DNA of 47,777 bases, from positions 1 through 47,777 of the IMG/VR virus record IMGVR_UViG_3300031227_000082. One strand, given 5' to 3'. A program made the translations under genes and the position numbers. Below the pieces are notes generated by a model. The model did not search any database and had not been told where the DNA came from. It was given only the letters and a program-made list of their open reading frames with translations. This stretch comes from a virus. Of this stretch, positions 4,860 to 40,645 are shown piece after piece; positions within the stretch are counted from its first letter, which is position 1, and the number at the start of each line of letters is the position of its first letter.

Positions 4860-5771
4860 ATGATAGAGAAAGCGGTATTCTCGTACTTCAATCCTGAAGA
4901 CGATTTCATCAATAAATGTGGTTTTTTAAAATTCAGCGACTTCCTATATACAACAGGGCTGGCTGTGTGGTGCGCCTCAAAGCACTTTAAAGAGGTTGAG
5001 ATAGTGAGTAATGACTGGGGCATTGATATGTTCGAGAAATTAGGACTACCTGTTACTTCCTATTCCCGGATCCTTAATAAGATGAATGATCCCAAAGCTC
5101 CTGTATCGAGATTCTTCTGGGCCTACGGTAAGCTAATGGCCTATTGTGCGCAAGATAAACCCTTCGTACATCTGGATAATGATGTATTCCTGTGGGATCC
5201 TCTCCCTGAGCGTATCCTTAACGCTGAGCTGTGCTTCCAGAGCCAGGAGCCATTTAAAATACCCGGCTATAGTTATTATAAGCTATTAAAGAAGCCCTGG
5301 AGGAAAGCTAAGGTGCGCCCCAAGAAGATAGTTGATAACGAAGTTAAGGACTATGCTTATAACTGTGGTATCTGTGGAGGTCATAATCTTGATTTCTTTA
5401 AGGAGTGGATAGAGTGTAGTGCTGAATATATCTTCGCACCAGAGAACCAGACTTTATTCTTTAAGGATTATGCGGAGATGATGATACACCAGAACCTATT
5501 CCATGAGCAATATTTCGCTGCATGTCTTATTAAGATGCATAAGATGAGGAAAAGGGTTGAGGTCATCGATAAGGATGCTTCTAAGATCGAAAATATCATT
5601 AAGTACACCCATCTATGGGGAACTACCAAGAAAGACTATAGTATGATGAGGAGAGTGAGTATGCGCCTACAGATAGAAGCACCAGAGCTACATGGTAGGA
5701 TAAAGAAGTATATCATCGATAATGACCTGGAAGCTCCGTTTGAACAATTAGGTAATAAATACACACCTTAA
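4860..5771 (+). CDS. GT-A-type glycosyltransferase-like protein (303 aa)
   Basis: The likely role is transfer of a sugar from a nucleotide-sugar donor. The key feature is FVHLDNDVFLWDPLP (about residues 101-115): a hydrophobic strand ending in a D-x-D-type acidic motif as used by GT-A enzymes to hold metal and nucleotide sugar. The wider pattern, including WAYGKLMAY upstream and NCGICGGHN in the second half, resembles DUF6734-like Bacteroidota sugar transferases; that family match is from memory. It has no signal peptide or membrane helix. The gene stands alone between the terminator at 4807 and an inverted repeat at 5787, separate from the glyco-island at 10148-14679. Acceptor unknown. Confidence 0.6.
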   Translation: MIEKAVFSYFNPEDDFINKCGFLKFSDFLYTTGLAVWCASKHFKEVEIVSNDWGIDMFEKLGLPVTSYSRILNKMNDPKAPVSRFFWAYGKLMAYCAQDKPFVHLDNDVFLWDPLPERILNAELCFQSQEPFKIPGYSYYKLLKKPWRKAKVRPKKIVDNEVKDYAYNCGICGGHNLDFFKEWIECSAEYIFAPENQTLFFKDYAEMMIHQNLFHEQYFAACLIKMHKMRKRVEVIDKDASKIENIIKYTHLWGTTKKDYSMMRRVSMRLQIEAPELHGRIKKYIIDNDLEAPFEQLGNKYTP

Positions 5772-7484: not shown

Positions 7485-7822
7485 GAATATTGTCGGTCAT
7501 CGGTAATTTTTTTAGATTCCTTAAACAATGGCTTTGGGATAGACCGGTAACACCACTACCGAAGGAAAAGCCTAAATTCAAAGCTCAGGAGTTGGATCTT
7601 AAAAACTTTTATACTGTACTCGAGTATAAGGGCCAGCGTATTAATCTCAATAAGAATGAGCTTACTGCGTTCAATAATATGAACAGGGCAGCAAAGAGAC
7701 AAGTTCTGGAACACTGGAGAAAGTTAGAGAAGAAAGGACATATACGATTTCAAGAGATTGACGGCCAGGTGGTCGCAATAAAAAATAAAGACTATGAAAC
7801 CAAGAAAGACATTCGGCAATAA
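7481..7822 (+). CDS. hypothetical protein with N-terminal hydrophobic helix (113 aa)
   Basis: The N-terminus (MRILSVIGNFFRFLKQWLWD) is a short amphipathic or hydrophobic helix that may attach the protein to a membrane. The following 90 residues are soluble, helical and charged (NMNRAAKRQVLEHWRKLEKK). It overlaps the upstream gene by four bases and the downstream GroES-like gene by 29 bases. No family is recognised. The long downstream overlap is compatible with co-translation with the co-chaperonin-like protein. Confidence 0.55.
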   Translation: MRILSVIGNFFRFLKQWLWDRPVTPLPKEKPKFKAQELDLKNFYTVLEYKGQRINLNKNELTAFNNMNRAAKRQVLEHWRKLEKKGHIRFQEIDGQVVAIKNKDYETKKDIRQ

Positions 7823-8501
7823 TGTTCTCATTAAACTGGATAAAACTAATGAGTCAATAAAATTCAAGGATGGTTCAGAGATCTACCTGGATACATCATT
7901 TGATCCCGAGAAGCACGCAACGGTAACAGGCGAGGTTTACGGATTACCAACTAATCTCCTTTATACAGGCAAGCCTAATCTGGGTATGCCATGGAAAACA
8001 CCACTCGAAGTAAAGATGGGCGATAGGGTAGTTTTATATTACCTGGCAGTCGTTAATTGTTTCAGACCTGAATCATATAAGGCTGTCATTGAGGGAGAGG
8101 ACCGGTATGTGATTATTACCTACCAGAATATATATGCTATTGTCAGGGATGGTGTGTTAATACCCGTTAATGGTTATTGTCTGATAGAGCCTATAGATAA
8201 TCCGGAGAAGATCAGGATGAAAGAGCGAATGGAGAAAGTCGGCCTGATACAATTAGACCTGGGGGAAAAATCTAATAAAGATGTTGTTTATGGGAAGGTT
8301 GCGCATTGCGGGACACCCAATGAAGAATATGTGGACTCACACCATACGGACAATGGAGTAGATATCGTTGTGGATGATGTAGTCGTTTTAAAACGGATAT
8401 CGGATATTCCCCTGGAGTATGATTTACATGCTAAGATCGATGGAGGACGTAAGTATTGGAGGATTCAACGCAGATATATATTAGCGATTTATGAAAAGTA
8501 G
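7794..8501 (+). CDS. tandem GroES-like co-chaperonin (235 aa)
   Basis: The protein appears to contain two Cpn10/GroES-type barrels. Repeat 1 (residues about 7-110) begins NNVLIKLDKTNES, passes through ATVTGEVYGLP and VKMGDRVVLYYL and ends ENIYAI-like (YQNIYAIVRDG). Repeat 2 (about 112-233) begins PVNGYCLIEPIDNPEK, passes VVYGKVAHCG and VVVDDVVVLKR, and ends RRYILAIYEK. The order 'vLi(k)l...GkV...(k)GD.V...y....i....ilAi' is the GroES pattern. GroES caps the GroEL chamber; phage versions (T4 gp31 is the classic case) help the host chaperonin fold capsid protein. Normal GroES is about 95 residues, so a double-length fusion is unusual. It sits a few genes upstream of terL. Confidence 0.72.
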   Translation: MKPRKTFGNNVLIKLDKTNESIKFKDGSEIYLDTSFDPEKHATVTGEVYGLPTNLLYTGKPNLGMPWKTPLEVKMGDRVVLYYLAVVNCFRPESYKAVIEGEDRYVIITYQNIYAIVRDGVLIPVNGYCLIEPIDNPEKIRMKERMEKVGLIQLDLGEKSNKDVVYGKVAHCGTPNEEYVDSHHTDNGVDIVVDDVVVLKRISDIPLEYDLHAKIDGGRKYWRIQRRYILAIYEK

Positions 8502-8764
8502 TGGATTATCAGATAACCAGTAATATAATCAGATTTGAAGAAGGAGAAGAATGTGATGGTAAGCCTAGTTGGAACGCGATGCATAGTTATTACGATTACC
8601 CTGATAGTAAAAAAGGGGTAAAGATTGGAGTACTGAAATGGGATTTATTTATCGAAGAATACTGCTATCATCCTGAATGTCCTTGGTGGCATGAACAGAT
8701 CATATTATCAGATAAATTACTAAATGAGATAACAAAATTTATAAGAGATCTTAAAACACAATGA
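8501..8764 (+). CDS. hypothetical protein, GTG start (87 aa)
   Basis: The frame opens with a GTG at 8501 that shares its G with the TAG stop of the upstream gene; the stop then overlaps the next ATG (8761-8764). This tight packing argues for the GTG start although an internal ATG (8580) exists. The product is acidic and aromatic, with a Cys/His cluster in its second half (EYCYHPECPWWHEQ) that could hold a metal. No family is recognised. Length and position suggest a small accessory protein of the pre-packaging operon. Confidence 0.5.
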   Translation: MDYQITSNIIRFEEGEECDGKPSWNAMHSYYDYPDSKKGVKIGVLKWDLFIEEYCYHPECPWWHEQIILSDKLLNEITKFIRDLKTQ

Positions 8765-9387
8765 AAAGTCAATTTGTAGATAAAGAATTTACATCAATGA
8801 TGTATAATCCTGTCCGGGTACCGGAGGGAACCAATATATTAAAATTCTATAAAGACCTATCCAAGGTAAGAACGTTTAAGCTGAACCCGGGAGAGGGGAT
8901 TGATAATAACAAGTTGATGCAGTACATATTATGCATGTATGACAAAAACTCGCCATATCGTAAGAAATATTCAGATGTACTTAAGCGTAAGGTAGAAACA
9001 GCACACGATGTTGAATTTCAGGATATAGGAGGAGGGATGTTTGAATCTCCTATTGAGGATCTACTTAAAGGAAAGAATAGGGTTGTCAATAAGAAGATTG
9101 TCGAGTATGTACGGCTGCATCGCAACTTCAAGTATGCCTTCCTGGTGAGCATAGAGGCCAGTTATTTCACACTCATGGTAGATATCATGGGAGGAGAGAC
9201 AAAGAGGATCAGTGATGCCCGGAGCATACAGATGGAGCTGGAAGATACGATGATGGAGATTATCAACCAGGACAATAACCCATATCTAAGGGATGAGATA
9301 TTACGTTATATGGAGGACGAGAGGCTAAAGCTGCGCCCGGAAGATGTAGCTAAGAAGATGCAAAACGGAGAAAACCCCATAAAATGA
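8761..9387 (+). CDS. conserved-looking helical protein upstream of terminase region (208 aa)
   Basis: A predominantly helical soluble protein with the order: N-terminal polar segment with two Met-rich turns (FTSMMYNPVRVPEG), a Lys-rich helix pair (YRKKYSDVLKRKVETAHD), a central GGGMFESPIEDLL turn, and a long acidic C-terminal helical half (MELEDTMMEIINQDNN). It starts in a four-base overlap with the preceding gene and ends in a four-base overlap with the GIY-YIG gene. No family was recognised. A small terminase subunit would be expected in this general neighbourhood and none was identified elsewhere, so this is the best candidate by size and helical content, at low confidence. Confidence 0.55.
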   Translation: MKSQFVDKEFTSMMYNPVRVPEGTNILKFYKDLSKVRTFKLNPGEGIDNNKLMQYILCMYDKNSPYRKKYSDVLKRKVETAHDVEFQDIGGGMFESPIEDLLKGKNRVVNKKIVEYVRLHRNFKYAFLVSIEASYFTLMVDIMGGETKRISDARSIQMELEDTMMEIINQDNNPYLRDEILRYMEDERLKLRPEDVAKKMQNGENPIK

Positions 9388-10139
9388 GAGGTATTTATAA
9401 AATAACATCCCCTATTGGAATGATCTATATAGGTCAGAGTATTGCAATAGAAAGACGGAAAAAAGAACATGAATCAAGATGTAATAAAAATGATACTCCA
9501 GCTTTACTTAATTCTTTTAAAAAACATGGATTTACAAACCATCAATTTGAAATTTTAGAAATAGTTGATGAGAAAATAGATAAGTCTTTAGCAATTAACA
9601 TCCTGAATGGTTTAGAACAGAAATACATAAAAGAATATGATTGCATACATCCCTTTGGCCTGAACTTAAGTATAGGTGGCTATAATAGAATTTTAACAGA
9701 AGAAACAAAACAAAAAATATCTAAATCTCATATAGGAATAATTCCCTCTGAAGAAAGTAAGAGAAAAGGAGTAGAAACCAGAAATAGAAACGGTTCATAT
9801 GTATGCTCAGATAAACAAAAAGCAGCCGTCAGTAAGGCGCATAAGGGTAAGAAGTATTCTATAGAAACCCGGCAAAAAATGAGTAAAGCAGCAATAGGGA
9901 GGAATAAAGGAAGGCGGCACTCTCCAGAAGTAATAGCAAAAATGACATTATTAAAAATAGGAAGACATACAAAAAAAGCAAAGGCCGTTAATCAATATTC
10001 TTTATCAGGAGAATATATACAAACCTATCGTTCTATAACAGAAGCTACAAAGGCGGTGAATGCTGGATCTTGGGATATTAGTAATACTTGTCATGGGAGA
10101 CAGAAAACATGTAAAGGATTTATTTGGAAATTTAATTAG
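9384..10139 (+). CDS. GIY-YIG homing endonuclease with NUMOD modules (251 aa)
   Basis: The catalytic domain occupies residues 1-95: GIYKI at 3-7, IYIGQS at 14-19, the Arg in IERRKKEH and a Glu in LEQKYIKEYDC are the conserved GIY-YIG residues. DNA-binding NUMOD3-type repeats follow (TEETKQKISKSHIG, SIETRQKMSKAAIGRNKGRR, SPEVIAKM). The end is a NUMOD1-like helix-turn-helix (VNQYSLSGEYIQTYRSITEA). This is the classic layout of a free-standing phage homing enzyme. It overlaps the upstream gene by four bases and lies just before the glyco-island. Lys-rich and A/T-rich composition fits a mobile gene. It probably targets the intact junction in related phages. Confidence 0.92.
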   Translation: MRGIYKITSPIGMIYIGQSIAIERRKKEHESRCNKNDTPALLNSFKKHGFTNHQFEILEIVDEKIDKSLAINILNGLEQKYIKEYDCIHPFGLNLSIGGYNRILTEETKQKISKSHIGIIPSEESKRKGVETRNRNGSYVCSDKQKAAVSKAHKGKKYSIETRQKMSKAAIGRNKGRRHSPEVIAKMTLLKIGRHTKKAKAVNQYSLSGEYIQTYRSITEATKAVNAGSWDISNTCHGRQKTCKGFIWKFN

Positions 10140-10147
10140 ATAAAGAT

Positions 10148-10774
10148 ATGGTAATTAAGGGGTTCTGGCACATTTTCGCGATTAACCACTGGTACTCAAT
10201 AATTTCAGAACAAATGAGGATCCTTATCTACTCCGGTCTTTATGATGCATGTGAGGAGATCAATATAGGATGCATAGGAAGCAATGAGGAGTTGGAATTA
10301 CTAAACAAGTATTTCATAGAGATATACCCAAAGCTGGTCATTCGTTATCATTCTGAAGAACCTCAAGATTACGAGTTCCGGACCATTCAGTTAATTGAAG
10401 ACGATAATTCCAGTTATGTAGGCTTTTATTTTCATACAAAAGCTGTAACTTCACCACTAATAACAAGGATGAATCACTGGAGAGGGTGGTTGAATGAATT
10501 TGTTATAAATAGATGGAAGGAGCACTATGAAAGAGTCATTGATGGATATGATGTCTCCGCTGTAAATTTCTTAGGGAGTCCAAATCATTTCTCGGGTAAT
10601 TTCTGGTGGTTTAACAGGGAGCATATAGACGGATTACCTAAGATTGACTCACTTGATCACGATTTCAGGTACTTTGCAGAACAATGGATATGCATGAGGA
10701 AGGGCAAGTATTTTTACGAACCATTTATGGAGCCAGGAGATAATTCTTATAAAATTAAAAAGATGGAGGATTAA
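10148..10774 (+). CDS. glycosyltransferase-like protein (208 aa)
   Basis: The pattern GFWHIFAINHWYSIISEQMR, then YFHTKAVTSP, NHWRGWLNEFVINRW, and finally HFSGNFWWFN matches a family of putative sugar transferases that I recall from Bacteroidota polysaccharide clusters ('YxHTKG ... SGNFWW'). I cannot name an exact family or donor. The start at 10148 is preferred to ATG 10214 because the homology-like block begins before 10214. It lacks signal peptide and membrane segments. It opens a block of five sugar-related genes (10148-14679) with gaps of only 2 bases or with overlaps, so they should form one operon with terL. Confidence 0.55.
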   Translation: MVIKGFWHIFAINHWYSIISEQMRILIYSGLYDACEEINIGCIGSNEELELLNKYFIEIYPKLVIRYHSEEPQDYEFRTIQLIEDDNSSYVGFYFHTKAVTSPLITRMNHWRGWLNEFVINRWKEHYERVIDGYDVSAVNFLGSPNHFSGNFWWFNREHIDGLPKIDSLDHDFRYFAEQWICMRKGKYFYEPFMEPGDNSYKIKKMED

Positions 10775-10776
10775 CC

Positions 10777-11541
10777 ATGAAAGTACTTTTTTATCCTGAC
10801 GCCCCCATTCAACATCAGGGACACACCCTTAGTAAAACTATAAAATATTTTAAGGCTCTAGGGTATGAGTTGACTAACGATATCAATTCTAAATGGGATG
10901 TGGCTGTACACTGGAACCATAAAGATATTAACAAAACCTCGGAGAAATTATTAAAAGATCAAAGGTTGGTATTCAATAGACACCTAAATGATGTGACAAA
11001 ATTGGCAGTTGAGCGTCATTTCAAAGCAGCATTTGGTTATAGTAGTCTTGCCGATACTAGAAAACGTGGATATTGCATTTGTAAAAGTAATCGTCAATCA
11101 GCACATGATGGGGAGTTTGTAAAGACCCCATGTAGCCAGAAGGAGGGGTGGATATATCAGAAACTTATCGATAACAGATCATCGATAGGATCCATATATG
11201 ATATTCGTATCCCGATATTCAGAGGACAAATACCATTTTTGTTTATAAAGACCAAAACCATTGAAGGTAGTTTTGAGGTTGAGTTATCAACAGAGAGAAA
11301 ATACTATACAGCCATGACTGATGAGTACCTTTCAATAGACGAAGTTGGAAAGGTTAAATGGTTCTGTAGAGAATCAGGCTTCGACCTGGGAGAGATAGAT
11401 GCTGTAAGGGATAATAGTACAGGAAAACTTTACCTCATCGATATAAATAATATTCCCGGAGGTGGAGTATTTGATCATATAAAAAATGGGGATGCATTAT
11501 TTAAGCAGTTAGTTGAGTTTTTTAAAAGAGTATTAGTATGA
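10777..11541 (+). CDS. ATP-grasp-like enzyme in glyco-island (254 aa)
   Basis: The second half carries an ATP-grasp-like signature: IYDIRIPIFRGQIPFLFIKT around residues 138-157, and GEIDAVRDNSTGKLYLIDIN with a terminal NNIPGGG, where the Asp/Glu and Asn residues would bind Mg-ATP. ATP-grasp enzymes join a carboxylate to an amine or thiol through an acyl phosphate. The N-terminal half (FYPDAPIQHQGHTLSKTIKY; DVAVHWNHKD) would be the pre-grasp domain. It overlaps the next gene by four bases. In company with glycosyltransferases it may add an amino acid or acyl group to a glycan, as some ATP-grasp ligases do, or modify a peptide. The family call is from motifs only. Confidence 0.6.
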   Translation: MKVLFYPDAPIQHQGHTLSKTIKYFKALGYELTNDINSKWDVAVHWNHKDINKTSEKLLKDQRLVFNRHLNDVTKLAVERHFKAAFGYSSLADTRKRGYCICKSNRQSAHDGEFVKTPCSQKEGWIYQKLIDNRSSIGSIYDIRIPIFRGQIPFLFIKTKTIEGSFEVELSTERKYYTAMTDEYLSIDEVGKVKWFCRESGFDLGEIDAVRDNSTGKLYLIDINNIPGGGVFDHIKNGDALFKQLVEFFKRVLV

Positions 11542-12482
11542 GAGATGTTGCTATTTTCGCTGAAGAAAGTTCATTGTTTGCAGCTCCATTCCTGGCAGAC
11601 GCGATAGGTTGTAATTTGTATGTGATCCTAACTCAGTATAATAATTTCTTTGGCAAAAAGGCACGACAGGGAATATTCTGGGAAGGCGGGAAAGCAATAA
11701 AAGAAAAACACCTGATAATTATAGGTTATGCGGCCTTAAAAGCTATGGTTATATCTGGAGATATAAAGAAGAAAAGGTTTAGGTCGGTGGCCTTCATTGA
11801 TAGTGAGAGTGCGGCATGTAGGTACTGGAAGTGGGTAGATCAATTTATTACTGAAAATAAAATAGTCCATTATGCCATGCCTGACAAGGATCCATTCATA
11901 CACCATCCCTATAAGCCTATTTATCAGACTATAAGCGTAGCAGCCCAGGGATCATATAAAAATCAGGAAAAACCAATAATAGCTCATTCTCCTAATAACT
12001 CCATTAAGGCCAGATATAAGGGAACACCATTTATAATGGATGTGATTAAAAAGCTTAAAAACAGACATGGTTTTGAATATGTCAATATACAAGGTCTTTC
12101 AATGACCGATTGTTTGAAGTTAAAGCTCAAGGCTAATATTTTTATTGACCAGATGATCTACAAGAACCCCGATGTACCACAAGATAGATGGGGAGGGGAG
12201 ATAATATATAATGGAGGACTAGGGAAGTCAGGTATTGAAGCCATGATGTTAGGGGCTTGTGTTATCACAGGGGGAATTGAACCAGATACGAGTAAATATT
12301 TCCCTCCACCTCCGGTAGTATGGGCTTCTTATGATAATTTCCTTGCACTCCTGTATGAGCTTATTACAAACCCAGATTATAGAATACAAAAAGCAAAAGA
12401 ACAAAAAGCATGGACAAAAAATTACAGCACTCCAACTTTCGTAGGACAGTTCGTAACACAGCATATAAAGGGCCGAGGATAG
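11538..12482 (+). CDS. GT-B-type glycosyltransferase (314 aa)
   Basis: The C-terminal half contains NGGLGKSGIEAMMLGACVIT (about residues 226-245), the signature donor-binding loop and helix of GT4-like GT-B enzymes, where the Glu contacts the nucleotide sugar. Just before it come IAHSPNNSIKARYKGTPF and a Rossmann-like strand (FEYVNIQG). The N-terminal half is a second Rossmann-type domain (HLIIIGYAALKAMV). No membrane helix or signal is present. It overlaps the upstream ATP-grasp gene by four bases and the downstream gene by 73 bases. Likely role: sugar transfer to a glycan or protein acceptor; donor and acceptor are not readable. Confidence 0.75.
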   Translation: MRDVAIFAEESSLFAAPFLADAIGCNLYVILTQYNNFFGKKARQGIFWEGGKAIKEKHLIIIGYAALKAMVISGDIKKKRFRSVAFIDSESAACRYWKWVDQFITENKIVHYAMPDKDPFIHHPYKPIYQTISVAAQGSYKNQEKPIIAHSPNNSIKARYKGTPFIMDVIKKLKNRHGFEYVNIQGLSMTDCLKLKLKANIFIDQMIYKNPDVPQDRWGGEIIYNGGLGKSGIEAMMLGACVITGGIEPDTSKYFPPPPVVWASYDNFLALLYELITNPDYRIQKAKEQKAWTKNYSTPTFVGQFVTQHIKGRG

Positions 12483-13132
12483 CTGTCTATACTGTTATCA
12501 TGGGTCCTTTTGATCGCCTCAATGAGGTAAAAAAGGAATTTAAAGAGGAGGCTGATTTCTTTTTATTCACAGACCAAAATATAGAAACGGATGATTATAA
12601 GGTAATTAAAGTTAAACCCAACGGACCCAACCTGAGAAGGGAGTCGAGAAAGTATAAATTTCATCCTTACATTTACTTACCCGATTATAAGCATTCAATT
12701 TACATAGATGGTAATATGGAGTTATTGGAGTCACCGGGTAAATTAATTAATAAATACCTTAAGAAACATCCTATCGCGGTATTCAAACATCCTTGGAGGG
12801 ATTGTATATATGATGAAGGGGAAGAATGTCGGAGGCTAGGGCTTGTAGGGAGAGATAATATTAATAAACAACTTGCTTATCTCCGGGAAATGGGCTATCC
12901 TAAGCATTATGGATTAGCTGAAAATGGGGTAATGATAAGAAGGAACTGTAAAGAGGTTCACGACCTTATGATATTATGGGATCAGATGTATAAACGATTC
13001 ACTCATAGGGATCAGTTATCTTTTTGTTTTTGTGCCTGGTCATTAGAGATAGAATATCAATTAATAGATGGTTTTACCAGAGATGGATTTGATACTAAAC
13101 CAATAGAATTTAAACTACATACACACTCATAA
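12410..13132 (+). CDS. DUF616/TOD1-MUCI70-like glycosyltransferase (240 aa)
   Basis: The pattern IAVYTVIMGPFDRLNEV, then DFFLFTDQN, RRESRKYKFHPYIYLPDYKHS, IYIDGNMEL and AVFKHPWRDCIYDEG is that of the DUF616 (TOD1/MUCI70) glycosyltransferase-like domain, where the IDGN strand is the equivalent of a DxD motif. The whole domain fills the protein. The gene starts inside the previous one (73-base overlap) and no ATG, GTG or TTG exists later before the core, so the long overlap is probably real. It ends at a TAATG junction with the next gene. Families of this type act on plant and bacterial surface glycans; acceptor unknown. Confidence 0.75.
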   Translation: MDKKLQHSNFRRTVRNTAYKGPRIAVYTVIMGPFDRLNEVKKEFKEEADFFLFTDQNIETDDYKVIKVKPNGPNLRRESRKYKFHPYIYLPDYKHSIYIDGNMELLESPGKLINKYLKKHPIAVFKHPWRDCIYDEGEECRRLGLVGRDNINKQLAYLREMGYPKHYGLAENGVMIRRNCKEVHDLMILWDQMYKRFTHRDQLSFCFCAWSLEIEYQLIDGFTRDGFDTKPIEFKLHTHS

Positions 13133-14679
13133 TGACATCAATAACACAAAATTCAATGAAGGATATTACAGGGATAGTAGTATCTCATAACACCTTAGAG
13201 TTGTTACAGAACGCATATGAGTCTGTTAGGAAGTTTCACCCTGACATGAAAATTATTATCATTGATGGTTCAGACAAAACAGATCCTTGCTATTTATATG
13301 CTCGTTCACTCGCATCAGATATAACTACCGTATATGCGGGGGGCTACAACATAGGCCATGGTAGGGGAATGGATATGGCAATAGGGATATGTGAAACAAG
13401 GTTTGCTCTTATTTTTGACTCTGATATAGTAATGCATAAAAGCCCTATACAAAAGATGCTTGATATGATGGAGGAGGACACATATGGGGTCGGATATACT
13501 GAGAAAACGGCATACGATGGACACGAATACGGACATTTCCCTGAACATAAAGACCAACCCTTTATGTACATGCTACATCCGTTTTTTCAACTATTACAGA
13601 TAAGTGAGTATTATAAATTTCACAAGTACGTTCATCACGGCTCGCCATGTTACAAGGCTGCCCTGGATATACATAAGCAAGGATTGACAGATAAAATAAT
13701 TAAGTGCTTACCTGGACTTGGACATACTCATGGAAAAGGAATCGCTTGGTCAGCCGTTCCCGGGGAATGGATCAAGCACGACACAGCAGGGACGAGAAAA
13801 GAGAGAGTTAGACGAGGACAAGCAGAAATAGAACCATGGGAGGAAGAAAAAAAGGGAACTATAGTATTAATAACGCCTACCGGAGCAAGAAAAGACCAAT
13901 TTGAGCTGTGTGTAAGATGGATGAAAAACCAAACTTACACAGGGGCCGTCACATGGATAATAATTGACGATGCTGTTCCTGTTACAACAGATATTATCAC
14001 TGAAGACTTTAGGGAAAATTGGACTATAATTAAAACCTATCCTGAGCCTACGTGGGAGGTAGGGCAAAATACTCAGGAACGAAATACTAAGGCTGGACTT
14101 GAGACAATGAGAAATAATTGTGATCTTGAAAACATAGAAGCGATATTTATAATAGAGGACGATGATTATTATAAGCCTTACTATCTTGAAAAAATGATGA
14201 TGGCAAAGCAAAATTATTGGATCTGGGGAGAAACAAATACGATATATTACAATGTGGTACATCGAAAATTTATGATCCATAATAACAGACATCACGCAAG
14301 CTTATTTCAGACAGCCTTTACAATAGACGCTATTTCTTATTTTGAGGATAATCTGCATCGTCAATTTATTGATGTTGGATTTTGGAAAAAGACACCTAAT
14401 AAGCGGTTATTCTTTGACGGATATCTTTCAGTAGGGATAAAAGGAATGCCCGGAAGAGGAGGGATAGGATCAGGACATGATCATTGTAGGGGGTTAAAAG
14501 ATGATCCTAGTATGCAATACCTGAATAAAATAATAGAGAGAGCTGATGTAAATTTTTACGAGGGATATTATACGGAGAGTGGCAAGATCCTATTGTCAGA
14601 AAGAAATCCCCGTCAAAAAGGTACAGTTCGTGTAAACCCTGATAACCCATTAAGACTAGTTAGAAAAAGATACAAATAA
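13132..14679 (+). CDS. bifunctional GT2-type glycosyltransferase fusion (515 aa)
   Basis: There are two GT-A modules. Module 1 (residues about 10-230) has the GT2 start ITGIVVSHNTLELLQNAYES, the Rossmann pattern KIIIIDGSDKTD, GGYNIGHGRGMDMAI and the FDSDI motif (DxD-like). Module 2 (about 243-500) starts TIVLITPTGARKDQFELCVR, has a WIIIDDA strand and the acidic run IIEDDDYYKPYYLEKM. The double-domain length is typical of polysaccharide or processive transferases. There is no membrane helix. It joins the preceding gene by TAATG and terL by TAATG (ATG 14679), so it is directly coupled to the packaging operon. Confidence 0.78.
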   Translation: MTSITQNSMKDITGIVVSHNTLELLQNAYESVRKFHPDMKIIIIDGSDKTDPCYLYARSLASDITTVYAGGYNIGHGRGMDMAIGICETRFALIFDSDIVMHKSPIQKMLDMMEEDTYGVGYTEKTAYDGHEYGHFPEHKDQPFMYMLHPFFQLLQISEYYKFHKYVHHGSPCYKAALDIHKQGLTDKIIKCLPGLGHTHGKGIAWSAVPGEWIKHDTAGTRKERVRRGQAEIEPWEEEKKGTIVLITPTGARKDQFELCVRWMKNQTYTGAVTWIIIDDAVPVTTDIITEDFRENWTIIKTYPEPTWEVGQNTQERNTKAGLETMRNNCDLENIEAIFIIEDDDYYKPYYLEKMMMAKQNYWIWGETNTIYYNVVHRKFMIHNNRHHASLFQTAFTIDAISYFEDNLHRQFIDVGFWKKTPNKRLFFDGYLSVGIKGMPGRGGIGSGHDHCRGLKDDPSMQYLNKIIERADVNFYEGYYTESGKILLSERNPRQKGTVRVNPDNPLRLVRKRYK

Positions 14680-16919
14680 TGGACCCGCTTTATCTCATGA
14701 AACGGTACGGTAAGGAGGTGGATACTCAGATATTAGCACAATATGAGGATGCGCCACGATTCGTATGGGTGAATACAGAGGATAAAGACATGGTTCCGAT
14801 AAAGATAGACCTACCCGATCCTCCAGAGTTTCATCTGATAGAAGGATTTGGATTACCGGCCAGGGAACAGAAATGGCATCCCCCTAAATTACCAAGACGA
14901 TTAAAAGAGGTTCAGAAGAAATTTGAAACCCTTGATGAGATATGGGTAGAGCTGGATGATCACCAGGATATTTACAGCGAGGAGATAGCGTTTATTGAGC
15001 AGATGTGGGATTACCGGTTAAATGGATACTGGTTTTATAACAATGGGGTGCCAACATATATTGATGGATGGCACTTTTTTTATTGCGCATGGTGGACCAT
15101 TGATGTCGGATTACCCAAGTACAGGGACAGGGACAGGAGGTTTTTTCTCTTTGCCAGGAAGATATTTAACGAAACGAAGTCACCCAAATGTAATGAGAAA
15201 GGGTTCGCAGTAGATGACGGGACGGGTGGATATGAGTGGATAGAGTTTGATAAGCGTTTATTCTATGGGTTCAACTACCCTAAGCACAGGCGCGAGGGCG
15301 CGACATACAAAGCTGAGTGTATAGGCTATGAGATAATAAGCCGTACCGGAGGAGCCTTTGGAGGAATACAGTCCATGAATGATGTTCAGTCCCGTAAATG
15401 CTTCCTAAGACACCTGGTAGCCCCATGGAAGAAACTACCATTCTTTTTCAAACCTAACTATGAAGGATCTACCTCTCCTAAGACAGAGTTATCATTCTCT
15501 CCACCGGCAAAGAGACTTTCATCCAGAGGATCATTAAGCTCATCTGAGCTAGGTCTGGAATCGGGTATAAACTATGAGATAGCCGATCCCTCAGCGTATG
15601 ACGGAGATAAATTATACTTCCATCATGACGATGAAGTAGGTAAGCTTAAAAAGGGCTTATCGTGCTGGGATCGACACACCGTTGTGAAAGAGTGTCTGGT
15701 AATGGGATCTGAAATAATAGGCTTTACAGTTAAGACCTCAACGGTAGGAGAGATGGAGAGAGGGGGAGGAAAGGCATTTAAGCACCAGTGCAAGATGAGC
15801 GATTACTACCAGAGGACACCAAACGGACAAACACCGTCCGGACTGGCTACATTGTTCATCTCCGCAGATGATGGGTTGCAGGGGTTTATAGATGAATATG
15901 GAATGAGTATTACGGGTATTCCTACAAAGCAACAGATAGAATATACCGGACATAAGATAGGAGCAAGGGAATGGTTACTTAACCGTAGGAAAGGATACAT
16001 CGACTTAGGCGACCAGGAGGGGCTATCGGAGGAGATACGTCTTTACCCATTACGTTTTGCGGAATGTTTTCGTACCGCAGCCAAATCATCAGGGTTTAAT
16101 ATGCTTAAACTGGAGACATATATCGATGACTTGTCATTTGCTAAGACACAGACAATTTGTGGTAACTTCAGCTGGAAGGATAATAAAAAAGACTCCAAAG
16201 TTATATTTACAGAACACCCTAATGGTAAGTTTATATTAAGCCAGCAGTTAGATCCCAATGAAGCGAATAGGAAATGGTGGAGTGACGAGATGGAGACATG
16301 GATGCCAGGTAACATGATATGGGGTGTGGCCGGGGGTGACCCCTTCAAGTTTAATAAGACAGAAGGGAACCGTAAATCTAATGGTAGTGGTGCCGTTGTT
16401 AAGAAAGGAAGGATTAAGGATGAAGATTTCTCCATGAAAAGAAGGTTTGCCTGCACCTACAACAATAGAACTTACGATAAGAATATCTATGGCGAGGATA
16501 TGTTGATGATGTGTGTCTATTACGGAGTACAGATGTTCCCGGAGATAAACATCCCTTTCCTATGGGACTATTTTGATGAGAGAGGATATTCAGGGTATCT
16601 GCTTTACAAGGTTGATCCAAAGACCTTTGAATTTGGCAAGACCCCAGGGGGCAGTACTAATGAGAAGATCAAACAGGATATTTTTACAGAGTGGATGACA
16701 TGGATAGAGAATGAGGCTGATGATGAAGTTCATATAGAGATCCTGGAGGAATGTAGGGACATAGAAGGACCGGAAGATATGACTAATTATGACTTATTTA
16801 CAGCTGGTGGATATGCGCTCTTAGGCACCCATGGCATCTATGATGAGGTTGCAGAATTACAAGACAAGGAGTATGATCTGGATAGTTATGTGAAGAAAAG
16901 ATACTATCCAGTGAAATAA
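14679..16919 (+). CDS. terL: terminase large subunit (packaging ATPase/nuclease, 746 aa)
   Basis: TerL pumps DNA into the prohead and cuts concatemers. Visible order: a long N-terminal region with aromatic-rich GVPTYIDGWHFFYCAWW; ATPase Walker A-like loop PKHRREGATYKA (about residues 201-212); Walker B YFHHDDEVGK (about 313-322); the nuclease domain with GVAGGDPFKFN (Asp near 554), and a late YDLFTAGGYALLG block. The usual Walker A Lys (GKT) is replaced by Ala, as HRREGAT. At 746 residues it is longer than average TerL but in range for crAss-like and related Bacteroidota phages. Followed by the portal after a promoter-like element. Confidence 0.88.
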   Translation: MDPLYLMKRYGKEVDTQILAQYEDAPRFVWVNTEDKDMVPIKIDLPDPPEFHLIEGFGLPAREQKWHPPKLPRRLKEVQKKFETLDEIWVELDDHQDIYSEEIAFIEQMWDYRLNGYWFYNNGVPTYIDGWHFFYCAWWTIDVGLPKYRDRDRRFFLFARKIFNETKSPKCNEKGFAVDDGTGGYEWIEFDKRLFYGFNYPKHRREGATYKAECIGYEIISRTGGAFGGIQSMNDVQSRKCFLRHLVAPWKKLPFFFKPNYEGSTSPKTELSFSPPAKRLSSRGSLSSSELGLESGINYEIADPSAYDGDKLYFHHDDEVGKLKKGLSCWDRHTVVKECLVMGSEIIGFTVKTSTVGEMERGGGKAFKHQCKMSDYYQRTPNGQTPSGLATLFISADDGLQGFIDEYGMSITGIPTKQQIEYTGHKIGAREWLLNRRKGYIDLGDQEGLSEEIRLYPLRFAECFRTAAKSSGFNMLKLETYIDDLSFAKTQTICGNFSWKDNKKDSKVIFTEHPNGKFILSQQLDPNEANRKWWSDEMETWMPGNMIWGVAGGDPFKFNKTEGNRKSNGSGAVVKKGRIKDEDFSMKRRFACTYNNRTYDKNIYGEDMLMMCVYYGVQMFPEINIPFLWDYFDERGYSGYLLYKVDPKTFEFGKTPGGSTNEKIKQDIFTEWMTWIENEADDEVHIEILEECRDIEGPEDMTNYDLFTAGGYALLGTHGIYDEVAELQDKEYDLDSYVKKRYYPVK

Positions 16920-16948: not shown

Positions 16949-19252
16949 ATGTCAGTACCCTATTTTACGAAGTATAGCACAGGCGCATTCCCCTTCCCTG
17001 ATGACAATATCGATCCTAAGTTAAAGGACAAGGGATGGGCAAAGAAATTTGGCGAAGCCATGCTTTCTTTATGGCTCAGGGACAAAACGGCTATCCCATA
17101 CAGTAAGATAAGAGAGATAGGAGAGCTTCGTGACCTAGCTAACGGTAATCAGGATGTTAGCAAATACCAGAAAATATTATTGGATGAGAGTGAAGACGGA
17201 TCAGGAGTAGAGGGCTACATGAATGTTTCCTTTGACGTATTCTCAGTGATGCCTAAGTTTCTCAGAGTAGTAGAGGGTATGATGGAGCAAACAGATCATC
17301 AGGTAATAGCTACAGCTGTAGATCCTAAAAGCTCAAAGGAGAAAGAAGAAGAAAAGCTCCGGACAGCTTTTAACATGAATTATCGTGAGATTATCGGTGA
17401 AATAGAAAAAGGACTGGGTATTGATAATGATAATCAGTTTATGCCTGAATCGGTTGATGAGTTGGATTTATACACCGGGATGGGAGGATTTAAGCTATCC
17501 AGGGAGACAGAGATAGAGGAAGGTCTGGATTATACTTTTTACATCTCTGATTGGAAGGAGATAAAGAAGAAGCTAATAAAAGACATTTTTACATTCAATG
17601 CGTGCTGTGCGAAGGATTATACTGATAATTACGCCAAGAAAGTAAAAGCCAGATATGTCGATCCGGCAATGTTCATAGGACAGTTCTCAAAAAGGAATGA
17701 CTATAGGGATATGACATTTGGAGGTGAGGTAACTCAGGTGTCAGTAGCTACAATCGTTAAGCAGGATCCGAAAGTTGATCTTTTAAAACTACAAGAACTG
17801 GCAAAGGGGTATAATGGGATTAATGGTAATCCTCAATTAAGTGATGCCCAGATAGGGACGGATTACTCAAAAGGTGGTGGGTGTGCTTGGAATAGTTTCT
17901 TACTTGATGTTCTGGATTTTGAATGGAAGTCTATCAATAGTGAGTACTGGACAAAGAGAGCAACTAAGTACGGATCAGATCTCTTATACGAAGAAGACTG
18001 GGGAGTAATAAAGGACTCAGAGAAGAAAAAAACTAATGTATATAATATCCATGTTGTTTATAAGGGCCAATGGGTCATAGGTTCAGATATAGTTTTTGAT
18101 TTTGGACTACAGCATGACATACCCCGACCAGACGGGAAAGAGGTTGCTTTATCCTATCATTTCTACAAATATGATGAAAAAGCCATTGTTCAGTCAGCTG
18201 AGCCATGCGTTCACCAGATAGCTCTGGCACACATAAAACTTCAAAACGCACTTGCTCAGGCAGCACCAGCAGGTATATCTATCGAATATACTTCCTTAAT
18301 GAATATGAAGCTAGGAGGTAATAAGATGAAACCCTTAGAGCTTCTGAAGATGAGAAAACAGAATGGAGATCTCATCTATAAAGCCACAACCCATAAGGGA
18401 CAACTGAATATCCCAGGAGGATACAGGCCGGTCCAGGAGCTACAGGGAGGTATTGGAACTCAGCTGGATGAGTTTATAAAGATATTTGAGCTGTATATTA
18501 ACTTCATTCGTGAGGTAACGGGTATAAACCAGATAGCGGATGCCTCTACCCCTAATCCCGAACAGTCAGTCGGAGGATCAGAACTAGCCATTGCAGCTAC
18601 AAACAACGCTTTAAGACCGATTTATTCAGCTTATATAGCCACGAAGGAGAAAGTAGCTAAGAACGCCTGTATGCGGATGCAGTTACTCATTAAGCATAAT
18701 AAGAAAGCTCTGGAGGGATATGTCCCGGTATTTGGTAGGGCAGGAGTACAGATATTGAGCGTGAGCGCAGATGTGGTAGATGCTAATTACTATATCAAGT
18801 ATGAAGCTAAACCTACAGACAAGAGGAAAGAGACTATTCGTGCGGCTGCTATTGCTGCTATGCAACCAGACAAAGATGGAACAAAGAGTATTGAGTTACC
18901 TGATTTCCTGCTTATCGAAAGAACATTGGAGAATGGGAACCTAAAATACGCTGAAGCATATCTTAATTACAGGAGTAGAAAGAACAAAGAAAAGCAGCTT
19001 CAGCTCCAGAGAGAGAACATGGAAATAGATAAACAGAGAGAACAGGAAGGCATACAAATGAAGAATAAGCTTGAAACTGAAAAGACTAAGCTTGAGACTG
19101 ACGAAAAGATTAGGTTTGAGAAGGCTAAATTAGAATTAACGGAAGAATATAAGGTAAAGGATCATGAACGCAAGCTAGAGGAGATAGCCCTACAATCAAC
19201 CATGAAGTCCGTTGAGCAGGGCGCAACAGAGAAACAACCCGTACCGGCATAA
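16949..19252 (+). CDS. portal protein (767 aa)
   Basis: Portal proteins form the dodecameric ring through which DNA enters and leaves the capsid. The call rests on position directly after terL, length (767 aa, suited to large Bacteroidota podoviruses) and composition: an acidic N-terminus, a VFSVMPKFLRVVEGMMEQTD helix, alternating crown/stem regions, and a conserved-looking VGGSELAIAATNNALRPIYS segment. The C-terminal 110 residues are a long charged coiled coil (EKQLQLQRENMEIDKQREQE), probably the barrel or a tail for scaffold contact. No catalytic site is expected. The scaffold and capsid genes follow. Confidence 0.82.
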   Translation: MSVPYFTKYSTGAFPFPDDNIDPKLKDKGWAKKFGEAMLSLWLRDKTAIPYSKIREIGELRDLANGNQDVSKYQKILLDESEDGSGVEGYMNVSFDVFSVMPKFLRVVEGMMEQTDHQVIATAVDPKSSKEKEEEKLRTAFNMNYREIIGEIEKGLGIDNDNQFMPESVDELDLYTGMGGFKLSRETEIEEGLDYTFYISDWKEIKKKLIKDIFTFNACCAKDYTDNYAKKVKARYVDPAMFIGQFSKRNDYRDMTFGGEVTQVSVATIVKQDPKVDLLKLQELAKGYNGINGNPQLSDAQIGTDYSKGGGCAWNSFLLDVLDFEWKSINSEYWTKRATKYGSDLLYEEDWGVIKDSEKKKTNVYNIHVVYKGQWVIGSDIVFDFGLQHDIPRPDGKEVALSYHFYKYDEKAIVQSAEPCVHQIALAHIKLQNALAQAAPAGISIEYTSLMNMKLGGNKMKPLELLKMRKQNGDLIYKATTHKGQLNIPGGYRPVQELQGGIGTQLDEFIKIFELYINFIREVTGINQIADASTPNPEQSVGGSELAIAATNNALRPIYSAYIATKEKVAKNACMRMQLLIKHNKKALEGYVPVFGRAGVQILSVSADVVDANYYIKYEAKPTDKRKETIRAAAIAAMQPDKDGTKSIELPDFLLIERTLENGNLKYAEAYLNYRSRKNKEKQLQLQRENMEIDKQREQEGIQMKNKLETEKTKLETDEKIRFEKAKLELTEEYKVKDHERKLEEIALQSTMKSVEQGATEKQPVPA

Positions 19253-20557: not shown

Positions 20558-21931
20558 ATGGGACCAGAAGCTATTGCACAAATATATGCCTCAGATATAG
20601 TATCAGGCTTTGATATCCACAAGCCAGAGAACCTTAACACGCTTTTTAGTCGTTTTGGTGATCAGGGCGCGTCTTACTTCCAGCTACTCAGATCCATGGG
20701 ATTTGAGCAGGAGGTGTCACTCGATGAGTATGGACACTGGGAAGAAAACCGAATCCATGAAATTCTTCATGTCAAGGATGATGTCGTTCAGTCAGCGGTC
20801 GGGGAACCGATTACTTTTGTACTGGATGCACAGGACCTTGATGTTAATGGGAATTTCTATGCTCGTCTGTACGATCAGATACTTTTTCACAATGAAGTAC
20901 CTGGATCAATCACAGAGATTGATGTTACAGATGCAGCTAATCCAGAGATTACGGTTGAACCGAATGATAATACAGATCAAATTCCTGCCTTGACTGCAGG
21001 GGATGAACTTATCATATTCACTGATGCATGGTCAGAAGGATCCGGGCAACCAGACCCAGCTCTCCGTGGAGTATGGAGATATGATAATGTCGCTCAGATC
21101 ATCAAAGAGACTATCGGTTATACCGGTACCGAGATGGTTGATCAGACATGGTTCAATGTAACAAGTAAAGGGGTAAGTATCCCGGCTTATTACTTCCTTG
21201 GTCAGGTAGATATTGACTATCGTATGTCTTTGAAGATTGATGGAGCACTGCTTTGGAACAAGATAACTACCAATGCTGGTATTGTCGATCCAGACACAGG
21301 CCGTCCAATCAAGACAACAGAAGGTCTTATTCCTTATATAAGGCGAGTTGGTAACGAACAGACCTATGCATCAGGAGCATTTGCTGTTGATGAGTTTGAT
21401 GAAATGGATAATACCCTTGACAGGGAACATGCAGGAAATTATATTCTGGGCTTGCTCGGAATATCTCTGCACCAGGACATTGAGAACTCACTTGTTGATT
21501 ATTTCCAGAATACTAACATTAGCTTTGCGAAACAGGCTACTAACAGTGTTCTTTTCAATAACAACGAAGCTCTGTCTGCATCTGTTAACTTCACCTATCT
21601 GACAAAATCAGAAAGGACATTCCTTATGAAAAGGATGGGCGTTTTCAATAATCCCAAATTATACGGAGCTACAGGGTATGAAGCTCCTAATATGGGTATA
21701 TGGATGCCTATCAACAAACGTAAGGATCCTGTCTCCGGGAACCAGGTTGCATCTATCGGGTGCAGATATCGTGGTCTTGGTAAATACAACAGGAGAATGG
21801 AAGTTTGGAGTGTTGGGGGCGCAGGCGAAGGAATGAAGGTCACTGAGTTTGACAAGAGACACACTTACATGAGAGCGCATATTGGAGCTCATTTCCGTGG
21901 AGGAAACCAATTTGTTCTGATGGAGACCTAA
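20558..21931 (+). CDS. major capsid protein, HK97-type (457 aa)
   Basis: This is the best capsid candidate: it is third after portal and scaffold, has the expected length, and is preceded by a long (54-base) A/T-rich leader ending ATAATTAAAATG as in highly expressed Bacteroidota genes. The sequence is beta/alpha mixed with an extended N-terminal arm, a beta-rich insertion (DINVNGNFYARLYDQIL-like strands), and a C-terminal part (GCRYRGLGKYNRRMEVWSVG, MRAHIGAHFRGGNQFVLME) that fits the A-domain and P-domain end of an HK97 fold. It is followed at once by a strong terminator. HK97 fold is inferred from context, not from a match. Confidence 0.78.
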   Translation: MGPEAIAQIYASDIVSGFDIHKPENLNTLFSRFGDQGASYFQLLRSMGFEQEVSLDEYGHWEENRIHEILHVKDDVVQSAVGEPITFVLDAQDLDVNGNFYARLYDQILFHNEVPGSITEIDVTDAANPEITVEPNDNTDQIPALTAGDELIIFTDAWSEGSGQPDPALRGVWRYDNVAQIIKETIGYTGTEMVDQTWFNVTSKGVSIPAYYFLGQVDIDYRMSLKIDGALLWNKITTNAGIVDPDTGRPIKTTEGLIPYIRRVGNEQTYASGAFAVDEFDEMDNTLDREHAGNYILGLLGISLHQDIENSLVDYFQNTNISFAKQATNSVLFNNNEALSASVNFTYLTKSERTFLMKRMGVFNNPKLYGATGYEAPNMGIWMPINKRKDPVSGNQVASIGCRYRGLGKYNRRMEVWSVGGAGEGMKVTEFDKRHTYMRAHIGAHFRGGNQFVLMET

Positions 21932-28496: not shown

Positions 28497-29266
28497 TGAG
28501 CTTAGTTACACCAAAGACCCCAGGACTAGTTACTATTAGGTATATAGTGATGTCTATCCTGAATAGAATGGGAGATTACAGCCTAAAAAAATACAAAAGG
28601 CTCGTACAGATTTGTTTAGAGGGATACGGGGAGTTGTCATTATGGCATATAAATAATCTCGAAGTTGTGTATTTGCGTATGAGTGCAGCAAAAACAGTAG
28701 ATCTACCTGCAGACTTTGTTGATTATACAAAAATAGGGATTCCTATCAATGGGAAACTAAAGGTGCTTACGCAGCATAACCAGATACTATTACCCAGAGA
28801 ATTTGAAGATGGTACACCGGTTGGTAATACTGATGCTGATGATACAGTTGATGCAGCTAGTCTAGTGTTCTTCTCAGATCATTTCAGAGGAGGACAATAT
28901 GTAGGAGGTTTATTTGGGATGCCTGGTGGTGTCGATGATGCGTATTACCGTATCGATATGGAGAACAGGCAGATTGTATTCTCAGGAACCGTTTACAGGT
29001 CTGAGATCGTCCTGGAGTATATTTCAACAGGTGTTAAGACATCAGGTAGCTCATTAATACCCAGAGAGGCCGTACCAGCACTCAGGACATATGTTCAATG
29101 GGTAGCGATAGAAGATAACCCAAGGGTAGCAGCCAATGAGAAGGAGAGGAAGAAAAGGAACCACGAAGAAGAAATTGAAGCACTAAGATCCTTCCAGAGC
29201 ATTTTTACAGCGGATGAATATAGAAGGATGTGTTTTTCTACGTACCGTCAAACTGCGAAACGCTAA
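28496..29266 (+). CDS. ring/tail-tubular-type connector protein (256 aa)
   Basis: An opening helical block (RYIVMSILNRMGDYSLKKYK) leads to TVDLPADFVDYTKIGIPING, a turn-and-strand pattern I associate with podovirus head-tail connector (gp4/tail-tubular-like) proteins of Bacteroidota phages. The middle has a flexible GGQYVGGLFGMPGGVDD loop, and the C-terminus is a charged helix (ANEKERKKRNHEEEIEALRS). It begins on the last base of the upstream stop, and its own stop overlaps the next gene as TAATG, so connector and nozzle genes are coupled. Confidence 0.58.
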   Translation: MSLVTPKTPGLVTIRYIVMSILNRMGDYSLKKYKRLVQICLEGYGELSLWHINNLEVVYLRMSAAKTVDLPADFVDYTKIGIPINGKLKVLTQHNQILLPREFEDGTPVGNTDADDTVDAASLVFFSDHFRGGQYVGGLFGMPGGVDDAYYRIDMENRQIVFSGTVYRSEIVLEYISTGVKTSGSSLIPREAVPALRTYVQWVAIEDNPRVAANEKERKKRNHEEEIEALRSFQSIFTADEYRRMCFSTYRQTAKR

Positions 29267-39271: not shown

Positions 39272-40645
39272 ATGGCAAAAAAAATAGACCCGGCTTTTAT
39301 CGCAGCTCCTTACTACGGGGACTCGTCATACGATCCTATTAAGGCCGTAACAGATATAAAGGCAATGAATTATCAAAGCGCTCTTGCTAGACGGAAGAAG
39401 CAAGAGGCGGACATGGAAAAGGGTAGAAAGGATCTAACCATGGAGATAAAGGGATGGTCAGATCAGCAGGGGTCAGATGAGATAACAAAAGAGTTAGAAG
39501 AAACTCAGGCTAAGTATATTGAGCTAGGGACTCAGGGAATGAATTTATATCGCCCTAATAGCATGGCTGAAAAAAAGGTAGCCAAGGCTTTCAGAACAAA
39601 AATGAATAACCTTAAACAGAAAAATGCTGTATGGCAGGAAGAAAAGATGATAGCTGAGGCAGCAGAGAAATTTTATAGGGATCAGGAACAATTACCACAA
39701 GAGGAGCAAACAGCAGATTTTGAAGCCGGAGTGAAGGCTATGAAAGAATGGAAAGAAACAAAGGGGGGGGTTCTTGAAAGAAGGGATAAGATGAAGGGTC
39801 TTATCGTGACTAAAGCAGGGCCAGAAGATATAGGGGCTTACTTTAAGAAACAAATTGATATCACTCTGCCAGGCTTAGATGCTAATCAAGATAGTGTAAC
39901 CGTTGATCCTACAACAGGAAAGACAACTATCAAAGGATGGGCCGGGATGGATACGAAACGTCTTGAGGCAGGGATTAAGAAGATTGTTAAGAGCATTAAT
40001 AATGCTCCAGAAAATATTCAAAATGCTGTAAATAAAGCCTACGAGAAAGCAAAAGGAGATACAGTATTAAGTAAGGAAGAATGGGTAAGAGAAAATTTCG
40101 TCCCTCTATATCCGGAGAAAACAACAACTAGGATAACAGGTGGTGCTGGGGGTGGAGGACTTTCATTAAGTTTCTTAGGTAAGAAAACATCAATAAAGCC
40201 AGGCACCCTACAGACAAATCCCAGAACGTATGGATCTGGAGAGAAAGGTAGAACATATACGAGTCATTATGAATTTGACACAGACGAAGTATTTACTATT
40301 CCAAGAGGAGAAAGTGGATCTTCAGTTTGGAACACAAATTCATGGACCCCAGTTACAGGAGGTGGTGATGTAGAGGGTAAGCTTTTATTTTATGACTCAA
40401 ACAGGGATGAGCTGGTCTTCCGAACAACTCAGGCAAGTGTATTTCCGTTTACAATGAATAACATGACTCTTGCTGTCCCTAGGGCAAATCTAGGAGATCA
40501 GGTTGATGACTTACCTATTGAAGTAGATGGAGTAACCAGGAAACTTAGTGATATCTATGGTCCTGTTGAGACACCATTAAAATCACCATTTGGAGACAAC
40601 GATCTGGAATGGAGCGTAAACCCATATATACCAAAGAAGAAATGA
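39272..40645 (+). CDS. putative internal/ejected virion protein (457 aa)
   Basis: The first 250 residues are helical and highly charged (ALARRKKQEADMEKGRKDLT; KAFRTKMNNLKQKNAVWQEE), coiled-coil-like. A Gly-rich segment (TGGAGGGGLSLSFLG) leads to a beta-rich C-terminal part (GKLLFYDSNRDELVF, DNDLEWSVNPYIPKKK). It ends in an ATGA overlap with the giant gene. The order small Gly/Ala protein, coiled-coil protein, giant polyvalent protein matches the row of internal proteins ejected with DNA in podoviruses. No catalytic site is apparent. Confidence 0.6.
   Translation: MAKKIDPAFIAAPYYGDSSYDPIKAVTDIKAMNYQSALARRKKQEADMEKGRKDLTMEIKGWSDQQGSDEITKELEETQAKYIELGTQGMNLYRPNSMAEKKVAKAFRTKMNNLKQKNAVWQEEKMIAEAAEKFYRDQEQLPQEEQTADFEAGVKAMKEWKETKGGVLERRDKMKGLIVTKAGPEDIGAYFKKQIDITLPGLDANQDSVTVDPTTGKTTIKGWAGMDTKRLEAGIKKIVKSINNAPENIQNAVNKAYEKAKGDTVLSKEEWVRENFVPLYPEKTTTRITGGAGGGGLSLSFLGKKTSIKPGTLQTNPRTYGSGEKGRTYTSHYEFDTDEVFTIPRGESGSSVWNTNSWTPVTGGGDVEGKLLFYDSNRDELVFRTTQASVFPFTMNNMTLAVPRANLGDQVDDLPIEVDGVTRKLSDIYGPVETPLKSPFGDNDLEWSVNPYIPKKK

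Follow-up and report, generated by a model that had tools for sequence, protein, structure and literature searches.

A swappable glycan locus tied to the packaging operon of Bacteroidetes phages

The chlorovirus PBCV-1 glycosylates its own capsid autonomously, by a pathway of virus-encoded, soluble glycosyltransferases (GTs) that works in the cytoplasm on a proven acceptor. Here we describe a block of sugar genes directly 5' of the terminase large subunit gene (terL) in a 47.8 kb virus fragment (IMG/VR record IMGVR_UViG_3300031227_000082; the whole stretch of 47,777 nucleotides is called the window below). The block represents one allele of a glycan cassette that phages swap as a whole, at a fixed hotspot of recombination within the packaging operon. 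Already known are the enzyme classes, virion glycosylation by phages, whose GTs are believed, in mycobacteriophages, to decorate the capsid and the tail tube with glycans at the C-termini (Freeman et al. 2023, as cited in PMC12619734), and hypervariable GT islands in phages (PMC7029224); in the literature searched we found no description of wholesale exchange combined with recurrence at the packaging genes of unrelated phages. The initial annotation had taken five consecutive genes to be one glycan system wired into the packaging operon. Its glycan reading held up, the tie to packaging genes proved real and recurrent, and the observation is larger than first described, since it extends to a glycan locus that is swapped between phages and linked to their head/packaging operons.

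The five open reading frames (ORFs), termed genes A to E, do run without a break into terL, all on the + strand with gaps of ≤2 nt or overlaps; the cassette itself starts with a homing endonuclease that the initial annotation had omitted. The features of the locus are as follows.

4860–5771, + strand: DUF6734 protein, probable GT-A glycosyltransferase (PF20508, E = 3e-41)
7794–8501, + strand: GroES (Cpn10)-like co-chaperonin in the conserved flank upstream of the slot (PF00166, E = 2e-4, barely past the cut-off)
8761–9387, + strand: conserved gene of 208 aa that forms the left border of the slot (mostly 49–78% identical within the clade)
9384–10139, + strand: GIY-YIG and NUMOD homing endonuclease, left edge of the cassette (PF01541/PF07460; phrog_314, E = 9e-29)
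10148–10774, + strand: gene A, putative glycosyltransferase of GT-A fold, usual first cassette gene (AlphaFold 2 (AF2) model with a predicted local distance difference test score (pLDDT) of 89, and Foldseek)
10777–11541, + strand: gene B, predicted ATP-grasp enzyme, amino-acid ligase or small-molecule kinase (AF2 pLDDT 84.6 and Foldseek)
11538–12482, + strand: gene C, probable GT-B glycosyltransferase (motif only)
12410–13132, + strand: gene D, TOD1/MUCI70 (DUF616) glycosyltransferase (PF04765, 57.3 bits against a cut-off of 21.4)
13132–14679, + strand: gene E, fused pair of GT-A/GT2-type domains (PF00535 in two stretches, E = 1.6e-16, 61.1 against a cut-off of 23.3 bits)
14679–16919, + strand: terL, right border of the slot (phrog_6681, E = 4e-74)

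About 50 relatives with terL 60–85% identical were examined, and their gene order leads from the GroES-like gene through the conserved 208-aa gene and a variable interval to terL. Both borders of this slot are visible in 32 loci: in 15 the slot is empty and the border gene abuts or overlaps terL, and 17 (the window included, and some near-identical pairs among them) are filled with 3.0–8.6 kb and 4–13 genes. Two more loci have at least 10 kb 5' of terL, within which the border gene does not appear. The 220 cassette ORFs were grouped into 62 families, whose representatives match, in Pfam, GT2, GT10-, GT11-, GT17-, GT25- and GT92-like transferases; polysaccharide dehydratase, RmlD, DegT aminotransferase and hexapeptide acyltransferase for sugar synthesis; nucleoside diphosphate (NDP)-sugar C-methyltransferase, FkbM methyltransferase and O-methyltransferases; and a radical SAM-B12 protein, a FabH-like synthase, MaoC and an amine oxidase. 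Across cassettes, the NDP-sugar enzymes include a dehydratase, an epimerase, an aminotransferase and an acetyltransferase. The GT encoded by the last cassette gene forms, by alignment, a family separate from gene A. The cassette genes are translationally coupled, with overlaps in 118 of 144 adjacent pairs, by exactly 4 nt in 68, and the mean GC content of the cassettes is 38.8% versus 43.6% for terL (lower than terL in 26/27). The products are soluble: a transmembrane (TM)-like window was found in only 2 of the 220 proteins, and two such windows in none. Complete relatives carry these gene families essentially at the slot alone; none occurs in one relative with an empty slot (G005), and another (G009) has three cassette-type genes slightly upstream (GT2, unknown, methyltransferase).

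What is conserved, then, is the slot, the type of cargo and, in most filled slots, gene A in first position. Because the filled or empty state switches only about four times along the terL tree, occupancy of the slot is stable and its content is not. Between L013/L014 and L056, the left-border genes are 94.8% and terL 95% identical over the sequence covered, and the cassettes have only three genes in common, at 29–69% identity; the cassette has been swapped between near-identical phages. L014 and L020, conversely, have cassette gene content in common, with single genes 91–96% identical versus 74% in terL. From these two patterns it follows that cassettes, and genes within them, move between phages. 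Since relatives replace the whole block with other sugar genes or lack it, the outcome that the initial annotation had itself named as fatal to its reading of one system, a fixed five-gene system was rejected. The homing endonuclease has a counterpart at the matching position in L056 (37%); in L087 (3857–4612), a 99.95% identical contig from another sample, it carries an early stop codon, the window copy being intact, and the sugar genes of L087 are intact across the sequence covered. A second slot separates the GroES-like gene from the gene at 8761, and there relatives carry N6/N4 or Dam-type DNA methyltransferases (L037 3291–4574, L008 4537–5874, L020 1409–2593, L014 2073–2780).

Structure prediction bore out the enzyme classes assigned initially to genes A and B. 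The model of gene A has the GT-A nucleotide-sugar fold, and Foldseek matched it to GtrB, ArnC, RmlT and nucleotidyltransferases (E = 4e-5 to 1e-3, TMq up to 0.60), the resemblance to GtrB being to its soluble GT-A domain only; the putative enzyme has a conserved motif, H[FY]SGNFWW. Among the Foldseek matches listed for gene B, the top ones are all ATP-grasp enzymes (ArgX/LysX, ITPK1, PPIP5K, RimK, PsnB and Ddl, led by ArgX, ITPK1 and PPIP5K; E about 1e-7 to 5e-6), and residues D208, D222 and N224 are invariant, as expected of the metal-binding acidic residues and (D/N)xN motif of that superfamily. Its Pfam match falls under the cut-off, and on the model it belongs to the ATP-grasp superfamily, as first called. 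Aminoacyl decoration by gene B is possible, the closest folds being those of both amino-acid ligases and inositol-phosphate kinases. For gene C, the GT-B call is probable from a GT-B-like C-terminal motif, GLGKSGxEAM, kept in five homologues; there was no PDB or Pfam match to add to it. The DUF616-type call for gene D and the double GT2 call for gene E were upheld by PF04765 and PF00535. The ORF of gene D starts 73 nt inside gene C, whereas in relatives the two overlap by 4 nt. The halves of gene E are separate ORFs in reversed order in L089/L090, the window ORF joining E2 and then E1. PDB sequence searches with A, C, D, E and the DUF6734 protein returned nothing useful. Among 297 Bacteroidota genomes gene B was found in 6 and gene A in none, a search for a bacterial source of A that had no positive control. 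A-family transferases occur on 275 viral stretches, including contigs of 170–494 kb, and in L180, L190, L207 and other huge-phage contigs often lie amid long series of 200–300-aa ORFs.

The further glycosyltransferase noted at 4860 is the DUF6734 protein, in which a conserved HxDNDVF motif contains a DxD-like DND; its status as a GT is likely, not proven. The gene is present in 10/10 cassette-bearing records of at least 48 kb (7 distinct phages) and in 0/4 cassette-less records. In L026, L030 and L058 the slot is empty and the DUF6734 gene is kept, flanked by A/GT or methyltransferase genes.

Like modules sit among the head and packaging genes of unrelated phages. L090 is a siphovirus whose tape measure, protease, portal and terL belong to families of their own, and it carries B-x-C-D-E1-E2 (49–68% identity) in the interval from tape measure to head protease; L089 carries B, C and E1-E2, and G012 has cassette-type genes between tape measure and protease/portal. 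A second module of six genes (GT-B, methyltransferase, GT, A, a 266-aa gene and an epimerase) lies directly 3' of terL-portal in another siphovirus family (L170–L179), and between GroES and terL in L176 (terL 32%); in L166 (terL 27%) it separates terL from portal, in a partly changed order. The module thus adjoins terL/portal in at least three terL lineages. In the cultured Cellulophaga phage phi18:1, a D-family GT and a PF13578 methyltransferase stand between portal and protease/capsid; its authors noted the GT (gp41) in the structural module and suggested LPS (lipopolysaccharide), DNA or regulatory roles (PMC11946311). The neighbouring gp40 (L225 5564–6031) is annotated as a DNA methyltransferase from PF13578, and may be a sugar methyltransferase instead because PF13578 occurs in sugar cassettes. 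The main other feature common to the window phage and two unrelated B-C-D-E siphoviruses is a Fib_succ_major (PF09603) tail-region protein (window 29230–31518; L116 101–1558; L114 15300–16300), 46–50% identical over about 130 aa and absent in cassette-less G005; it is possibly a receptor-binding or acceptor domain.

By its terL and portal sequences, the window belongs among podovirus-type phages of marine Bacteroidetes. Its terL is 27–28% identical to those of Cellulophaga phi46:3, Maribacter Panino and Flavobacterium elemo, with relatives also in one Prolixibacteraceae and one Bacteroidetes metagenome-assembled genome; an annotated GroES lies immediately 5' of terL in Panino and elemo and is separated from it by one gene in phi46:3. 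Downstream of terL are the following.

16949–19252, + strand: portal protein (phrog_6547, E = 1e-75)
20558–21931, + strand: head structural protein, probable major capsid protein and possible acceptor (phrog_13704, virion structural protein, E = 7e-27)

Further along, the C-terminal part of the product of 35657–38311 matches a crAss muzzle protein domain (PF25729, E = 1e-6), hinting at a distant tie of this podovirus group to crAss-like phages, and a giant ORF of at least 2389 aa (40609–47775) reaches past the end of the window, its homologues in relatives being 2300–3800 aa long. As for the promoter and terminator of its own that would mark a phage moron, promoter-like sites did not exceed their number in shuffled sequences, in a scan that does not cover Bacteroidetes promoters, and no + strand terminator was found.

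The cassette probably serves to sugar-coat something when particles assemble, most likely the particles themselves. We put at roughly 55% the probability that it encodes a swappable pathway for a glycan, located in the cytoplasm and acting on a virion protein while virions assemble; this target is favoured because modules of this kind adjoin terL, portal, protease or tape measure in independent lineages. The cassette enzymes would be made together with the head proteins, and an oligosaccharide would be built stepwise in the cytoplasm from nucleotide sugars, directly on the virion protein. Gene A and the DUF6734 protein would carry out the constant steps, gene B would contribute an amino-acid or phosphate group, and genes C, D and E would add sugars specific to the allele, so that a change of cassette would change the glycan type of the particle. 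Homology for the exchange would come from the flanks, namely terL on one side and the 8761 gene and gene A on the other, and the homing endonuclease may aid it. Several points weigh against a virion target. The acceptor protein is so far only hypothetical, and the capsid candidate and two neighbours show no insertion or tail that tracks the cassette; position is no proof, since late operons tolerate any extra gene; LPS core can also be modified by cytosolic GTs; and the glycan is not essential, as cassette-less relatives are numerous.

The three jobs proposed initially fared differently: virion glycosylation fits best, surface remodelling is its chief rival, and glycosylation of DNA found no support. 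As a remodelling pathway, the cassette would alter host LPS or capsule during infection, blocking superinfection or keeping progeny off debris, and its variety would mirror that of host O-antigens. We regard this as possible, if rather unlikely: the gene content is like that of O-antigen loci (dehydratase, aminotransferase, acetyltransferase, methyltransferases, GTs), and the same reading was given for the GT islands of pelagimyophages (PMC7029224) and is among the roles proposed for phi18:1 gp41, but none of the 220 cassette proteins is a flippase, polymerase, initiating transferase or Gtr-type integral protein, and the repeated head/packaging placement in several lineages weighs against it. 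Export of a lipid-linked polymer was rejected on the TM scan of the 220 proteins, which found no membrane machinery.

That the genes are a chance set of unrelated morons, gathered where extra genes are tolerated and sharing no pathway, agrees with their high turnover, lower GC, the neighbouring homing endonuclease and the many empty slots; it is nevertheless highly improbable, for all long cassettes consist largely of sugar enzymes, gene-order modules recur in unrelated phages (B-C-D-E and GTB-MT-GT-A-x-SDR), and DUF6734, encoded elsewhere in the genome, tracks the cassettes. Least probable of all is that the sugars are placed on phage DNA as hypermodified bases that protect against restriction at packaging. 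The cassette adjoins terL, a DNA methyltransferase often lies beside the slot, and virus-encoded GTs can hypermodify DNA (Pyle 2024, as cited in PMC12619734); however, a thymidylate-synthase-type hydroxymethylase was found in 0/15 records and TET/JBP in 0/16, negatives that rest mainly on relatives of 65–78 kb, the window being a fragment. A C5-methylase occurs in just 3/16 records, two with an empty slot, the methylases beside the slot are of ordinary N6/N4 or Dam types, and the early genes are ordinary. With no supporting enzymes found in these records, DNA glycosylation was rejected.

More broadly, and tentatively, tailed phages of Bacteroidetes may have a "serotype locus": a pathway of the O-antigen kind, exchangeable and embedded among the head and packaging genes of one operon, would give each phage a particle glycan of its own, with aminoacyl or phosphate decoration by the ATP-grasp enzyme, and would be traded among unrelated phages. 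If the glycan is on the particle, tailed phages would show antigenic-type variation comparable to that of bacterial O-antigens, which would bear on adsorption, neutralisation and clearance; the cassettes would, moreover, offer new glycan enzymes. A direct test is at hand in the cultured phi18:1, which grows on a laboratory host, Cellulophaga baltica, and carries part of the cassette; mass spectra of its virions already exist (PMC13288928).

Among described systems, virion glycosylation in mycobacteriophages is alike in its phage-encoded GTs, if the cassette acts on the virion; as those phages are presented in PMC12619734, the differences lie in phages and hosts, and here in the up to 14–16 genes with NDP-sugar synthesis, the wholesale exchange and the hypothetical acceptor. 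The host recognition cluster of pelagimyophages and cyanomyophages (PMC7029224) is likewise a hypervariable island among structural genes and rich in genes for GTs and deoxysugars, but it spans 35–45 kb in T4-like phages and includes tail-fibre genes, whereas the present cassette spans 3–10 kb, is coupled to terL and consists of enzymes only, with no tail fibres inside. The gp40-gp41 pair of phi18:1 (Helsingorvirus) likewise puts a D-family GT and a PF13578 methyltransferase in the head gene cluster, although as two genes only and in another terL lineage, with published suggestions of LPS or DNA modification (PMC11946311).

Bacterial O-antigen and capsule loci also hold allelic cassettes between conserved flanks, with the same enzyme classes and GC below that of the flanks; the phage cassette differs in sitting in a packaging operon and in having no Wzx, Wzy, Wza or initiating phosphoglycosyltransferase, and the Wzx/Wzy type of locus is further set apart by the lack of any cassette protein with two TM-like windows. 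The same scan of 220 proteins found neither the GtrA flippase nor the integral-membrane Gtr transferase of GtrABC serotype conversion, and the ThyA-like hydroxymethylase or TET that marks glucosylated or hypermodified DNA was not found either. The resemblance to PBCV-1 lies in soluble, cytoplasmic, virus-encoded GTs, with the difference that PBCV-1 is a eukaryotic virus and that its acceptor is proven.

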